Below are positions 15,320 through 19,966 of a DNA stretch of 53,806 bases, piece after piece. The DNA is from an uncultured SAR116 cluster alpha proteobacterium. Its GTDB lineage: Bacteria > Pseudomonadota > Alphaproteobacteria > Puniceispirillales > Marisalimonadaceae. Below the pieces are notes generated by a model. The model was not told the DNA's origin. It ran no database searches and saw only the letters and a list, made by a program, of their open reading frames with translations. The stretch's first letter is position 1; the number at the start of each line of letters is the position of its first letter. Where the stretch lies: the NCBI GenBank assembly GCA_902517275.1, contig CABYBQ010000006.1, positions 1 to 53,806 on the forward strand. The letters run 5' to 3'. The translations under genes were made by a program, and so were the position numbers.

Positions 15320-16465
15320 TTATTGATTAGTTTTTGTACTCTGTGTTATTTTCATTTCAATCCTTCTGTTTCTTGCTCTTGCAACATTTGTATTTTTTTT
15401 ATCAATTGGCTGAAAACTTCCATAGCCTGAGGCAGACAACCTATCAGGTTTAATACCTTGCTTTATTAAAAATCTTAGGACAGATAAAGCTCTTTTTGTC
15501 GACAACTCCCAATTATCTAGGTAATTCTGCCCTTTCTTAACTGGTAAATTATCTGTGTGTCCATCGATTTGCAGTATCCAATCAATATCAGTAGGTAATG
15601 ATTTTTCTATATCCATTAAAGTTATTGCAAGCTTAGCCATTTCTTCTTGTCCTTTAATGCCTAATTCTTCTGAACCAACTTTAAAGAGAACTTCTGATTG
15701 AAAAACAAATCTATCCCCTACTATTCTTATCTCTTTACGCCCCTTGATAAGTTCTCTTACTCTACCAAAAAAATCTGATTTGAATTTCTGAAGTTCTTCC
15801 ACTCTTCTAGCAAGAGCAGAATTCATTTCTTTTCCTATGTTAATTGTTTTAACTTTTTCTTTTTTATCTTTTGCCTTGTAGGCTGATAAAAGAGTTTGTA
15901 ATTGAGACAATCTATTTCGTAATTTAAGAGACGCAGATATTAATTCATTTATTTCTTTTTTGTTTGCAGTAATAGTTTCATTCTTTTCATTTATATCTGT
16001 ATCTTTTTTATTTATTCTTTTCTCCAACTCTGAAAGATTATTTTTTAAAAGAACTGAATCTTGTATCTTTATTTTTAGTTTTTCTTTTAAGTCTTCAATT
16101 TTACTCTGATTTAGGCTTAGAACGTTTCTTTGACCAGCTAGCTCTTCTCTAAATTGAGTCACAAGTTCTTTTTCGTCTTTTAAATTTTTTTTAACTTCCA
16201 CTATCTTAGTTTCTAACAAAGATAGTTGTGTTGTTAATTCTGTTGTTGTTTGCCTCTCTAGAGAAAGTATTTCACTTAACTCTACTAAATTGTTCCTTAA
16301 CTCAATTAGGGCTTCATCTTGACCAGTCATTTTTTGTGAAAGAAAAAATTGTGATAAAACAAATATCATTAAGACAAAAATAATTACCATCAATAAACTA
16401 GCCAACGCGTCTACAAATCCTGGCCATGTATAATCTACTTGTCTTCTTCTAACTTTATTTAACAT
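15320..16465 (-). CDS. OmpA/MotB-like peptidoglycan-binding protein, partner of the MotA/ExbB-like protein
   Basis: The protein has 381 residues. One N-terminal transmembrane helix (about 18-42) is preceded by PGFVDALAS, whose Asp may correspond to the proton-carrying Asp of MotB. A long coiled coil follows (about 50-190). The C-terminus is an OmpA-like peptidoglycan-binding domain (IDGHTDNLPV, then LSTKRALSVLRFLI and ARNRRIEM). This is MotB architecture, but no flagellar genes are near. It follows the MotA/TolQ/ExbB-like gene by 32 bases, and this non-flagellar pair recurs in alphaproteobacteria. A proton-driven envelope role is likely but unproven. Confidence 0.85.
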   Translation of the reverse strand: MLNKVRRRQVDYTWPGFVDALASLLMVIIFVLMIFVLSQFFLSQKMTGQDEALIELRNNLVELSEILSLERQTTTELTTQLSLLETKIVEVKKNLKDEKELVTQFREELAGQRNVLSLNQSKIEDLKEKLKIKIQDSVLLKNNLSELEKRINKKDTDINEKNETITANKKEINELISASLKLRNRLSQLQTLLSAYKAKDKKEKVKTINIGKEMNSALARRVEELQKFKSDFFGRVRELIKGRKEIRIVGDRFVFQSEVLFKVGSEELGIKGQEEMAKLAITLMDIEKSLPTDIDWILQIDGHTDNLPVKKGQNYLDNWELSTKRALSVLRFLIKQGIKPDRLSASGYGSFQPIDKKNTNVARARNRRIEMKITQSTKTNQ

Positions 16466-16497: not shown

Positions 16498-17550
16498 TCA
16501 TTTATTATTCAGCTTGTTATATGATTTTTCCATTTCTGATAATTGTTTTGAAATGGCTCTTAACTCTAGAGTTAAATTAGATTGAAATTCTGAAATACTA
16601 TTGGTATTTTGTTCACTTAAATTTTTAAGAATTGACGAAATAGTAATTAAATGATCTTTCACACTTCTATCTTCATCAAGTTTTTCAACAAGTCGATTTA
16701 AAACAATTGTTAGTTCGTTTATATTTTCAGTTATCCTTACTCTTTCATTCTCATTTTGGTTAGCACGTTTGGATACAATTGCTAAATTTTCAACAGCCGC
16801 CTCACTTAAACCGGTACTTCCTCCTTCACTTGCAGTGAAAATAGCCATTTGAGACAACCAATCTTCTAGTTCATTAAAGAAACGATTACTTGCCTGGCCA
16901 ACTTGAAGATCTAAAAATCCCAAAATAAGTGAGCCAGCAAGACCAAATAAGGAAGAAGAAAAAGCTGTAGACATTCCATTAAGAGGAGCACTCAGTCCTT
17001 TTTGAATATCCATGAATAAGGAGTTACCATCGTTAGGATTATTACCAATATTAAAATCAATTGTATTTATAACTCCAGAAACAGATGAAATTGTTTGTAG
17101 TAACCCCCAAAATGTTCCTAGTAGACCTAAGAAGACAAGAAGTCCAATCATATATCTCAAAATTTCTCTACTTTCATCTAATCTTGATGAAACACCGTCT
17201 AGAATAGTCCCCAATGAATTTGCAGATAATAAGGGGTTATCTTTCCTGGTTTCAGTAAGAACAGCTGCTACGGGCGCAAGAAGTGTTGGTTTTATTTTAA
17301 GAGCAACATTAGCAGGCATTAAACTATCTTTTCTTTTAATAAATCTGAGCCATTTAGCCTCTTTGCTTAAACGAAAGGTTTGCCGAAATGAAAAGATAGT
17401 ACCTAAAATAAAAGTACTAATAATTACACTATTAAGTGCGGTGTTGCCTTCGTAAGCTTGTTTTAAAGGAACAAATAAAAATGAAATTAAAATAATTACA
17501 ATAACTAACAAAATTAGCATTCTTAAAGCATATTTATTTGGATCTGTCAT
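16498..17550 (-). CDS. MotA/TolQ/ExbB-like inner-membrane channel protein
   Basis: The protein is about 350 residues with two N-terminal transmembrane segments, then the MotA/TolQ/ExbB core (LLVFLGLLGTFWGLLQTISS, and SSLFGLAGSLILGFLDLQ). A C-terminal helical extension reaches into the cytoplasm. The frame begins at 17562, but ATG 17550 has GGGGA five bases upstream, while the first ATG has its nearest SD-like bases touching it. It pairs with the OmpA/MotB-like gene downstream. It is separate from TolQ, which is encoded at 25917. Function is inferred from fold and pairing: a proton channel stator. Confidence 0.85.
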   Translation of the reverse strand: MTDPNKYALRMLILLVIVIILISFLFVPLKQAYEGNTALNSVIISTFILGTIFSFRQTFRLSKEAKWLRFIKRKDSLMPANVALKIKPTLLAPVAAVLTETRKDNPLLSANSLGTILDGVSSRLDESREILRYMIGLLVFLGLLGTFWGLLQTISSVSGVINTIDFNIGNNPNDGNSLFMDIQKGLSAPLNGMSTAFSSSLFGLAGSLILGFLDLQVGQASNRFFNELEDWLSQMAIFTASEGGSTGLSEAAVENLAIVSKRANQNENERVRITENINELTIVLNRLVEKLDEDRSVKDHLITISSILKNLSEQNTNSISEFQSNLTLELRAISKQLSEMEKSYNKLNNK

Positions 17551-17632
17551 TTTTATCCCCATCTCTTAATAACAAAATCATTAAAACATGACTTTTGTAT
17601 GACACAAAATTATTAATTTCATTTGCTTAAAT

Positions 17633-18433
17633 TTAAAATTTATTATTAATCTTTTTAAGAAGCTCTTTATGTAAGGTTGGGTTTGCACCAATTAATAAAT
17701 CACCAGAAGTTTTGTAAGCATTAATATATTTTAAGTTGGTTAAGTATCCTCCAGCTTCTTTTATTAAAAGTTCTCCACATGCAACTTGATTCTTTTTTAA
17801 ATTATTAGCAAATAAACAATCAATCTTTCCAGAAGCTAACCATGCAAAAGTTAGAGCCGAGGATCCAAATTCACGTGTAACTGACGAGTGCTTAGATGCT
17901 AGACCATATATAGGCTCAAAAATATTGTTAGTAATTTTATTGTTAGTTATTTGACTATCATCGTATATTGAAAAAACACATGAGTTTATTGAACCTCTTC
18001 GAGAAACCCTAATCCTCCTATCATTTAGATAGGATCCCTTTCCTTTTTCAGCAAAAAATAATTCGTTTCTTAATGGATCTAGAATAACAGTAGACAAAAT
18101 TTCGTCATTAAATTCAACAGAAACTGAAATAGCAAAATACGGTAATGCATGAGAAAAATTAAATTGTCCATTTAACGTATCAACTATCCAATAATATTTA
18201 TCTTTAATACTGTGTTCACCAGAATTTAATTTCATTCCCCACGCTGGTCTGGATTTAGTTAAATCCTCCAATAATATTGAATAAATTTTGTTTTTAGTTC
18301 TTGATACGAAATTATCAATAGAGTTTGGGGAAACTTGCAAATTCTCTATTTCTCCAAAATCTCTTAGCACATTTCTTGTAACCCTATTCAAAGACAGAAA
18401 AATAATGTTTAAAAGTGGTGACTTGTTACTCAT
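17633..18433 (-). CDS. Inositol monophosphatase-family protein (SuhB-like), probably catalytically dead
   Basis: The fold is clearly SuhB/IMPase: FGEIENLQVS near the start, FAEKGKGSYLNDRRIRVS, FGSSALTFAWLASGKIDCLF and ELLIKEAGGY. The metal site is degraded. The usual Glu-Glu pair is Asn70-Ser71, DPLDGT is DTLNGQ (Asp85 kept, Asp88 changed to Asn), and the WDxAAG aspartate is Gln in NQVACG. The early catalytic Asp is Lys47. Phosphatase activity is therefore unlikely. E. coli SuhB has a non-catalytic role in rRNA antitermination, which offers one alternative function. ATG 18433 with GGAG five bases upstream is preferred over GTG 18439. It lies 38 bases after efp. Confidence 0.85.
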   Translation of the reverse strand: MSNKSPLLNIIFLSLNRVTRNVLRDFGEIENLQVSPNSIDNFVSRTKNKIYSILLEDLTKSRPAWGMKLNSGEHSIKDKYYWIVDTLNGQFNFSHALPYFAISVSVEFNDEILSTVILDPLRNELFFAEKGKGSYLNDRRIRVSRRGSINSCVFSIYDDSQITNNKITNNIFEPIYGLASKHSSVTREFGSSALTFAWLASGKIDCLFANNLKKNQVACGELLIKEAGGYLTNLKYINAYKTSGDLLIGANPTLHKELLKKINNKF

Positions 18434-18471: not shown

Positions 18472-19038
18472 CTAAGTTTTAGCTTTTTCTACATAAGTAC
18501 AGTCTGAAGGTCTAACTACTATTTTAGTACCTACTTCAATATGACCAGGTACCATAACTTTGATGCCATTTTTTAAAATAGCTGGTTTAAAAGATGAGGA
18601 AACTGTTTGCCCTTTTATAACAGCATCAGCTTCAATTATTTCTTCAACACAATTATCAGGCATAATAATAGACACAGGATTTTCATTATATAAATTTATA
18701 ATAACACTCATTCCATTTTGTAAAAAAGCCGCTTGGTCTCCTACCATATCAATATTTACTGTAATTTGCTCAAATGTTTGATTGTTCATAAATATAAGAT
18801 TTTTATTTTCTTGATATAAAAATACATGCGGTGTCTCGTCTAAGATGACCTTTTCTACGTTTTCAGAGGACCTAAAGCGTTCATTAAGTTTTGATCCATC
18901 CTTTAAGTTTTTCATTTCAATTTGTGCAAATGCTCCGCCTTTACCGGGTTTTACATGGCTTATTTTAGTTGCTACCCACAATGCATTTTTATGTTCTATA
19001 ACATTACCTGGTTTTATTGTGTTTCCATTAACTTTCAA
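18472..19038 (-). CDS. efp: Translation elongation factor P
   Basis: EF-P enters the ribosomal E site and rescues stalling at polyproline runs. The 188 residues contain the KOW-like domain with HVKPGKGGAFAQIEM, in which the tip Lys can be modified, followed by two OB domains and the C-terminal signature GTKIVVRPSDCTYVEKA. The start codon is TTG, one base after the aldolase stop, with GAGGA inside the end of the aldolase gene as ribosome-binding site. That spacing indicates strong coupling. The enzymes for Lys modification are not in this window. Confidence 0.96.
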   Translation of the reverse strand: MKVNGNTIKPGNVIEHKNALWVATKISHVKPGKGGAFAQIEMKNLKDGSKLNERFRSSENVEKVILDETPHVFLYQENKNLIFMNNQTFEQITVNIDMVGDQAAFLQNGMSVIINLYNENPVSIIMPDNCVEEIIEADAVIKGQTVSSSFKPAILKNGIKVMVPGHIEVGTKIVVRPSDCTYVEKAKT

Positions 19039-19039
19039 A

Positions 19040-19966
19040 TTACTTTCCTCTGTAAATATTCGTAATTTGGTTTAATAAATCTAAAGCTTCATCATATGGC
19101 CGTTGAAAAGAATTTCTACCAATTATTGATCCGCTTGCTCCGCCTAAAAATAATTCCTTAACTTCTATCAAAAGACTCTCATTATCTCTTGAGTTTCCAC
19201 CAGAAAAAACAACTAACCTTCTCCCATGAAAGCATGATTGTACAACATGTTTTATACGGTCAGTCAAAGTATTGATTGGAATGTTTTCTGACATATAAAC
19301 TTTTTTGGCTTCACTTAGCTCAATAAAAGATGTTGGAGGTTTTACTTTAATTATATGAGCCCCCACTAATGCGGCCATGTGGGCTGCGTAAGAAACAATA
19401 TCTATTGCCGTTTCTCCTTCTTTACTAATATCTCCTCCTCTTGGATAGCTCCAAACTACCACAGCAAGACCCGCATCCTTTGCTTCAAGTGCGATTTCTT
19501 GAATTTCTGTTATCATATCCAAAGCAGCGTCAGATCCTGGATAAATAGTAAATCCCACAGCGGAGCATCCAAGCCTAATTGCTTCCCTAACTGAGCCTGT
19601 TATAGCTTGGGTAGGAGCTCCTTTTTCTCTTGATAAAGAATTAGAACTATTTACTTTCATGATTAGAGGAATTTGACCAGCAAAAGTGTCAGCACCGGCT
19701 TCTAACATTCCTAAAGGGGCTGCAAAAGCAGACAAACCTGCGTTTATTGCTAACTTAAAATGATAATGAGGATCATAACCTAGAGAGTTTTTTGCAAAAG
19801 ATCTTGCTGGACCATGTTCGAAACCTTGATCAACTGGAAGGATAACTAATTTACCAGTACCAGCCAATTTACCAGACATTAAAATATTTGCCAAACTTGC
19901 TTTAACGCCTGGATTATCACTTTCATAATTATTCAATATTTTTTTTATAATTCTAGTCATTTTCAT
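19040..19966 (-). CDS. Class I fructose-bisphosphate aldolase (DhnA/FbaB type)
   Basis: This aldolase cleaves fructose 1,6-bisphosphate to two triose phosphates through a Schiff base. The 308 residues match the DhnA/FbaB family: LPVDQGFEHGP near the start, GFTIYPGS, VVWSYPRGG, and the Schiff-base lysine in HIIKVKPP. VFSGGNS and GASGSIIGRNSFQRP bind phosphate. This metal-free type replaces the zinc-dependent class II enzyme in many alphaproteobacteria. It is the first gene of the minus-strand run aldolase-efp-suhB-like-MotA-like-OmpA-like. It is divergent from the zapA operon across about 160 bases. Confidence 0.92.
   Translation of the reverse strand: MKMTRIIKKILNNYESDNPGVKASLANILMSGKLAGTGKLVILPVDQGFEHGPARSFAKNSLGYDPHYHFKLAINAGLSAFAAPLGMLEAGADTFAGQIPLIMKVNSSNSLSREKGAPTQAITGSVREAIRLGCSAVGFTIYPGSDAALDMITEIQEIALEAKDAGLAVVVWSYPRGGDISKEGETAIDIVSYAAHMAALVGAHIIKVKPPTSFIELSEAKKVYMSENIPINTLTDRIKHVVQSCFHGRRLVVFSGGNSRDNESLLIEVKELFLGGASGSIIGRNSFQRPYDEALDLLNQITNIYRGK

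Follow-up and report, generated by a model that had tools for sequence, protein, structure and literature searches.

A SuhB ortholog without metal ligands beside efp in the SAR116 cluster: a probable pseudophosphatase retained for a non-catalytic role

The window, which is the whole stretch of 53,806 nucleotides that was analysed, comes from an uncultured alphaproteobacterium of the SAR116 cluster and carries a suhB ortholog without metal ligands (Table 1). The gene is part of the run fba-efp-suhB-motA-ompA, which is present in the window and in its relatives from the same family (f1). Names for the four neighbouring genes were assigned by us from sequence, that of fba without a family search. 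ORF reading gives an uninterrupted frame over 266 codons that follows efp immediately and in the same orientation, which places the gene in the efp-linked SuhB group of Alphaproteobacteria and bears out an earlier sequence-only reading that described an intact gene in a tight run after efp. Other families of the order have at least efp-suhB in common, usually together with motA-ompA. Canonical and ligand-dead relatives have the same operon neighbours, and the efp-suhB adjacency is held across the class in both forms. Synteny and sequence together establish the orthology of the window gene with efp-linked suhB, and in our reading it was inherited vertically.

Table 1. Features of the suhB locus and related elements. 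Positions are those of the window unless a locus is named.
Feature	Position	Strand	Remarks
suhB ortholog without metal ligands	17633..18433	(-)	266 aa, ATG start at 18433
efp	18472..19038	(-)	Directly upstream of suhB; class-wide conserved neighbour; from ORF list and relatives' loci
fba, class I fructose-bisphosphate aldolase-like	19040..19966	(-)	Upstream of efp; named from sequence
motA, MotA/TolQ/ExbB-like membrane protein	16498..17562	(-)	Downstream of suhB; named from sequence
ompA, OmpA-domain protein	15320..16465	(-)	Downstream of suhB; named from sequence
RDFGEIENLQ, residues 24-33	18335..18364	(-)	Signature of canonical and most dead alphaproteobacterial SuhB
Lys47	18293..18295	(-)	Replaces Asp47 (third metal/water-activating pair); alignment
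Asn70-Ser71	18221..18226	(-)	Replaces Glu-Glu; alignment
Asp85 (IMPA1 Asp90)	18179..18181	(-)	Sole metal-binding acid left; alignment
Asn88 (IMPA1 Asp93, E. coli Asp87)	18170..18172	(-)	Replaces second Asp of DPLDGT; alignment
Gln90 (IMPA1 Thr95)	18164..18166	(-)	Replaces catalytic Thr of DPLDGT; alignment
Gln216 (IMPA1 Asp220)	17786..17788	(-)	Replaces WDxAAG Asp; alignment
K256-E-L-L259	17657..17668	(-)	Counterpart of E. coli Lys251/Leu254 in the alignment (site of NusA-AR2 contact, PMC6614801)
Conserved rRNA-leader element	L209:1305-1350; L218 about 1500, minus strand		

The window protein matches PF00459 (Pfam Inositol_P) with an E-value of 4.8e-28 and 98.8 bits against a gathering cut-off of 27. 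Its best-scoring NCBIfam model is NF008027, the SuhB/inositol-1-monophosphatase equivalog, although the score of 115 bits falls below the cut-off of 332. The nearest solved structure is that of Bartonella henselae SuhB (3luz, E 1.7e-41), and the closest named relatives are from SAR116 cluster genomes, mostly with names in the style of single-cell isolates. An AF2 model, for which 60 window and locus sequences served as input, adopts a predicted IMPase fold with a mean pLDDT of 89. Its best Foldseek matches are the SuhB structures 3luz, 8wip and 9j90, and the matches also include the E. coli SuhB-NusA-AR2 entry 6ib8 and the rrn antitermination entry 6tqn. Foldseek and VIA-align both rank SuhB at the top, with Z scores of 31-34 against SuhB chains over about 235-261 residues. 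The fold is intact in this model, in keeping with the fold-defining segments that the sequence-only reading had described as well kept.

Seven positions are diagnostic for the metal and catalytic site: D47, E70, E71, D90, D93, T95 and D220, in a numbering that we take to be that of human IMPA1. When aligned with canonical alphaproteobacterial SuhB, the window protein retains one of the seven, D90 (its Asp85), with Lys, Asn, Ser, Asn, Gln and Gln at the others; DPLDGT has become DTLNGQ, and WDxAAG has become NQVACG. The Asn at position 93, fixed here, is the same type of change as D87N, reportedly one of the IMPase-defective E. coli suhB mutants that are not associated with the cold-sensitive defect. 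The substitutions named in the sequence-only reading (DTLNGQ, NQVACG, Asn-Ser and the early Lys) are therefore correct by this alignment, with two refinements. The Lys at position 47 is confined to the window strain plus two relatives, with Glu found in 22 of 25 same-genus sequences, and the metal-binding acid Asp85 is kept in most of the genus. Other acidic residues in the metal site, which had been named as evidence that would count against a pseudoenzyme, are not placed consistently at the ligand columns. Across the same alignment the seven positions are invariant in 27 of 27 canonical sequences and most of them are lost in 32 of 32 SAR116 sequences from f1 and a second family of the order (f2), a pattern that, judged on these sequences, is far beyond chance. 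Because the carboxylates of both catalytic metals and the water-activating Thr/Asp pair are gone, we strongly infer that the window protein is devoid of Mg2+-dependent phosphatase activity.

Ligand loss is not a one-genome oddity. A count of ligands across the clade, which had been proposed as a check, gives zero to two of seven in every ortholog read from f1 (four genera) and f2, versus seven of seven in families f3 and f4 of the same order (about two dozen genomes read). Among the 58 genomes of the window's family, 51 yield at least some hit with the window protein, and the ortholog proper is present in about 40; those where the ortholog was not found are incomplete genomes. The EFP tree groups f1 with f2 (support 94) beside f3/f4, and therefore a single loss in their ancestor explains both.

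The replaced positions drift across f1/f2, with R, K or Q at T95, N or S at D93, and Q, F, D, L, E and others at D220. It has to be asked whether such replacements could instead have remodelled the pocket into a new catalytic or ligand-binding site, for example a metal-free one with Lys/Arg at position 90, leaving the protein an enzyme still or an anion sensor. The presence of Arg, Lys or Gln at position 90 in 31 of the 32 f1/f2 sequences, the invariance of the adjoining Asn92 and Gly89, and the frequent retention of one acid, Asp85, would agree with this proposal. However, no common new residue set is apparent across f1/f2 (position 70 is N/S/K/D/Y, and position 216 is Q/F/D/L/E) or in other dead lineages. 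Since the ligand columns of the dead lineages have no new set in common, they indicate decay and not a new shared chemistry, and we consider remodelling improbable.

The window suhB is under purifying selection, like efp and ompA. Its median dN/dS is 0.136 for 21 pairs among seven close genomes of one genus only (Nei-Gojobori), and the medians of its neighbours are 0.121 for efp, 0.115 for ompA, 0.077 for fba and 0.070 for motA. The gene is also intact in about 30 same-genus genomes, mostly named as single-cell (AG-) isolates or MAGs. In one relative (G008; L133 about 2020), suhB is interrupted after about residue 84 by unrelated sequence, which is probably a chimeric join in the assembly. This truncated copy, along with the 53% completeness of the source genome, might be taken to mean that the window gene is a decaying pseudogene or an artefact of sequencing or assembly. 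Against this stand the intact copies, the dN/dS of 0.14 in the closest genomes, the likeness of the G008 case to a chimeric join, and substitutions that are common to the whole clade. Clade-shared substitutions and selection rule this explanation out for practical purposes, leaving it only the slightest probability. Rather, clade-wide ligand loss, purifying selection and an intact fold support the original view of the protein as a likely pseudoenzyme.

A second canonical SuhB, for which a search had also been proposed, could in principle back up the dead copy, but none was found among the PF00459 proteins of the f1/f2 genomes searched. The other PF00459 proteins of these genomes are CysQ-like, HisN-like or of a third IMPase type (names given by us from motifs), and they keep the ligands at alignable positions. 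They score 38-116 bits against the SuhB model, compared to about 300-375 bits for true SuhBs. Likewise, the 13 non-SuhB paralogs met in the class survey described below all retain seven of seven. In the PF00459 family tree, all SuhB proteins, dead and canonical, fall together and apart from the paralogs, with a support of only 62. These HisN-, CysQ- and other IMPase-family phosphatases thus belong to PF00459 like the window protein, but differ from it in keeping all ligands, in not being found beside efp, and in falling on the other side of the tree. With ligands kept in the paralogs and no second SuhB found, only the efp-linked gene shows the loss, and no canonical copy backs it up. In several f1 genomes (L001, L141, L143-L146), the CysQ-like domain is part of an open reading frame some 600 codons long.

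The class-wide survey covered 385 genomes spread over the Alphaproteobacteria, which were searched with canonical SuhB. Genes were read for more than 60 high scorers, for 30 genomes with middle and 34 with weak scores, and for 20 of those that gave no hit at the initial cut-off, with ligand-poor defined as four or fewer of the seven residues. Ligand-poor SuhB is present in at least 36 of the 385 sampled genomes, the window's included, representing 28 family codes; these are lower bounds because the middle scorers were read in part. Examples are L224, L227, L228, L230, L238, L241, L242, L247, L248, L250-L257, L302, L319-L327, L332 and L341. Among the high scorers, 59 of 60 have all seven ligands and one carries D93N, and six extra ones are also complete. 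Ligand-poor proteins right downstream of efp are common among the weak and missing scorers, and at a few ligand-poor loci (e.g. L238, L253, L255, L257, L314 and L320) efp was not seen within the part read. For the most divergent cases (L326, L327, L332, L335 and L341) the N-terminal signature RDFGE..LQ is weak or absent, and orthology is assigned from efp adjacency and profile score.

Ligand states are bimodal among 69 efp-linked genes (39 with seven ligands, 27 with zero to three, and three with four to six), a sample that favoured weak scorers and is not to be read as a frequency. Partly eroded SuhBs, given in ligand order, include L267 (DEEDDTN), L298 (DEEDGSH), L308 (DGEDDTN) and L367 (DEEDNTD), and these might represent early stages of loss. 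Genomes with a dead SuhB span 0.6 Mb (L324, G152) to 4 Mb (L224, G202), and therefore the condition is not only a product of extreme genome reduction. The very small alphaproteobacterial genome at the lower end of this range, G152, consists of one contig and has an efp-adjacent SuhB with three of seven ligands; G283, which carries the same genus code, yielded no match.

Ligand loss is recurrent in other alphaproteobacterial lineages beyond the clade of the window. Dead and canonical genomes co-occur inside one family code for five codes (INDEPENDENCE), several with canonical sister genera: f71 (dead G202 versus canonical G321 and G414), f106 (dead G237 and G342 versus canonical G431 and G508), f107 (dead G509 versus canonical G432, G343 and G238), f111 (dead Endolissoclinum-like G346 versus canonical G512) and f84 (G421, with four of seven, versus canonical G215). 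The subset of ligands retained also varies among dead lineages. On the EFP tree, 17 changes of ligand state are required, four of which are forced by strongly supported branches, and the SuhB gene trees require six to eight changes (eight after masking of the ligand columns). The AU test, run on a 41-row subset masked in the same way, rejects a single origin of the dead forms (p 0.0036 when all dead rows are held together). Dead rows are clustered more in the SuhB gene trees than in the EFP tree, which is probably due to long-branch attraction, and the exact number of losses is therefore not fixed.

What is preserved in the dead orthologs differs sharply from what is lost. Over 30 rows, each standing for a family or genus, mean retention is 0.15 for the seven ligand residues versus 0.78 for other invariant or near-invariant canonical columns (Mann-Whitney p 1e-4). 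The columns kept include R24, D25, F26 and E28 of the N-terminal signature, as well as N92, G133, R140, R142, G202, E226, G228 and G229. The RDFGE..LQ segment is nearly invariant in canonical SuhB and mostly kept in the dead forms. It is positioned at the end of the first helix predicted by the AF2 model and was not found in E. coli SuhB nor in the paralogs examined. To our knowledge, RDFGEIENLQ, the most conserved segment of the protein, matches no known Nus contact. By its conservation, this segment stands out as the leading candidate for a surface that acts independently of catalysis, though folding could also require it. We think it probable that the efp-linked SuhB turned into a pseudophosphatase on many independent occasions without giving up its operon position or N-terminal signature, and that its function in the class is non-catalytic, possibly exerted through a partner surface not known from E. 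coli.

These same features could be read as signs of a different, Alphaproteobacteria-specific role in EF-P function, ribosome assembly or translation, with binding through the RDFGE..LQ helix end and no part as a Nus factor. The class-wide adjacency of efp to both canonical and dead suhB could point to such a translation role, as could a segment that is retained by most dead forms and peculiar to this group among the proteins compared. Yet conservation of adjacency is weak evidence of a direct interaction, and the only worked-out non-catalytic role is that of E. coli-type SuhB with the Nus factors. SuhB is not known to us to be tied to EF-P, either physically or genetically. On balance, we regard this alternative as rather unlikely, though far more credible than remodelling of the site.

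The reading that we favour, and consider probable, is that the window protein is a pseudophosphatase kept for the structural role of SuhB, which is most likely that of a Nus factor during transcription of rRNA; the Nus role, argued by analogy, is the less firm part. Phosphatase activity is probably not what keeps the gene in these cells, because the gene is intact and selected and the same loss has occurred several times in other alphaproteobacteria. Presumably, the cells ceased to need the SuhB phosphatase, and the active site would then have decayed while partner-binding surfaces stayed under selection. The retained SuhB would form a dimeric hub keeping NusA, NusE/S10 and NusG in place on RNA polymerase while rRNA is transcribed, and it might assist the folding of rRNA and the assembly of 30S subunits, as it does in E. 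coli. In that organism, SuhB is a Nus factor that binds NusA-AR2 (SuhB-AR2 structure, PMC6614801) and the rRNA signal RNA, the SuhB dimer is the structural hub of rrnTAC with NusA, S10 and NusG (PMC10250234), and SuhB promotes 30S biogenesis (PMC6614801, PMC10250234, PMC4807359). The growth function is separate from IMPase activity: in earlier work cited by one of these reports, IMPase-defective mutants are not linked to the cold-sensitive defect (PMC4807359). The linkage of the phosphatase and Nus functions is left open there (PMC4807359). A structural role in transcription or translation, as first proposed from the sequence, is thus plausible and consistent with the E. coli data. In the literature searched we found neither binding nor activity measurements for any SuhB from Alphaproteobacteria, and the papers contained no report of a ligand-dead SuhB, of SuhB D87N or of alphaproteobacterial suhB essentiality bearing on it.

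Two features of the SAR116 sequences are suggestive, and only suggestive, of a Nus role. The NusA-AR2 hot-spot positions carry Lys in 28 and Leu/Ile in 30 of 32 f1/f2 sequences (Lys/Leu in the window), and NusA of f1, f2, f3 and f4 genomes has a C-terminal extension that can be read by eye as both acidic-repeat domains. The Lys251 equivalent is Lys in only four of 48 canonical alphaproteobacterial SuhB proteins, and therefore contact with NusA-AR2 of the E. coli kind may not hold throughout the class. The hot spot was dropped as a class-wide argument for this reason.

Matches to the E. coli-type boxA (TGCTCTTTNACA) near rRNA are few per genome and somewhat above the reversed control, and none was found ahead of a recognisable 16S start; rRNA genes were detected in one of 14 genomes examined, and the rRNA leader was readable in two f1 genomes only. 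Within the window, boxA-like sites are no more numerous than expected by chance, and none stands out near efp/suhB. A sequence, CTGTTTGAYATTGTTAATTxAGAAGAGATTCACxGACGGCGGTT, is conserved in two f1 genomes of SAR116 (G040 and G044), where it precedes the 16S rRNA by 194-198 nt, and this element may be a local antitermination signal. At L217 about 1500 (G042:C14:23373), the same 14-mer CTGTTTGACATTGT is followed by GAAAAAAAGGAG just before an ATG, with no 16S downstream. It may be a 5' UTR element resembling boxA, or a chance occurrence.

That the active site has repeatedly been lost in nature, while the gene, its place in the operon and its other invariant residues were kept, amounts to an evolutionary separation of the two functions of SuhB. 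Such loss implies that the phosphatase is dispensable in these organisms and that something else is selected. It also makes native catalysis-free SuhBs available for structural and binding studies, and marks RDFGE..LQ as residues to mutate. Moreover, it suggests that a sizeable minority of alphaproteobacterial genomes carry such genes under a mistaken inositol monophosphatase annotation.

Among known systems, E. coli SuhB differs from the window protein in keeping all metal ligands and activity, in lacking RDFGE..LQ, and presumably also in that its gene is not adjacent to efp; the two proteins are about 25% identical. Nevertheless, this IMPase and Nus factor (6ib7, 6ib8, 6tqn) has the fold in common with the window protein over nearly the whole length together with a SuhB-type sequence, and it has a documented function independent of phosphatase activity (PMC4807359). 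Bartonella henselae SuhB (3luz, 3lv0) has a similar N-terminal segment, RDYGEVQNLQ in 3luz, but all seven ligands are present. Canonical alphaproteobacterial efp-linked SuhB proteins have the operon neighbours seen in the window and, unlike the window protein, all seven ligands. The SuhB of Candidatus Endolissoclinum faulkneri L5, which has a reduced genome, is efp-linked and ligand-poor like that of the window, with three of seven ligands. Its losses are Glu70 to Lys, Glu71 to Ala, Thr95 to Ala and Asp220 to Asn, with Asp47, Asp90 and Asp93 kept. Because these lost residues differ from those of the window protein, the comparison suggests that the two losses were independent.
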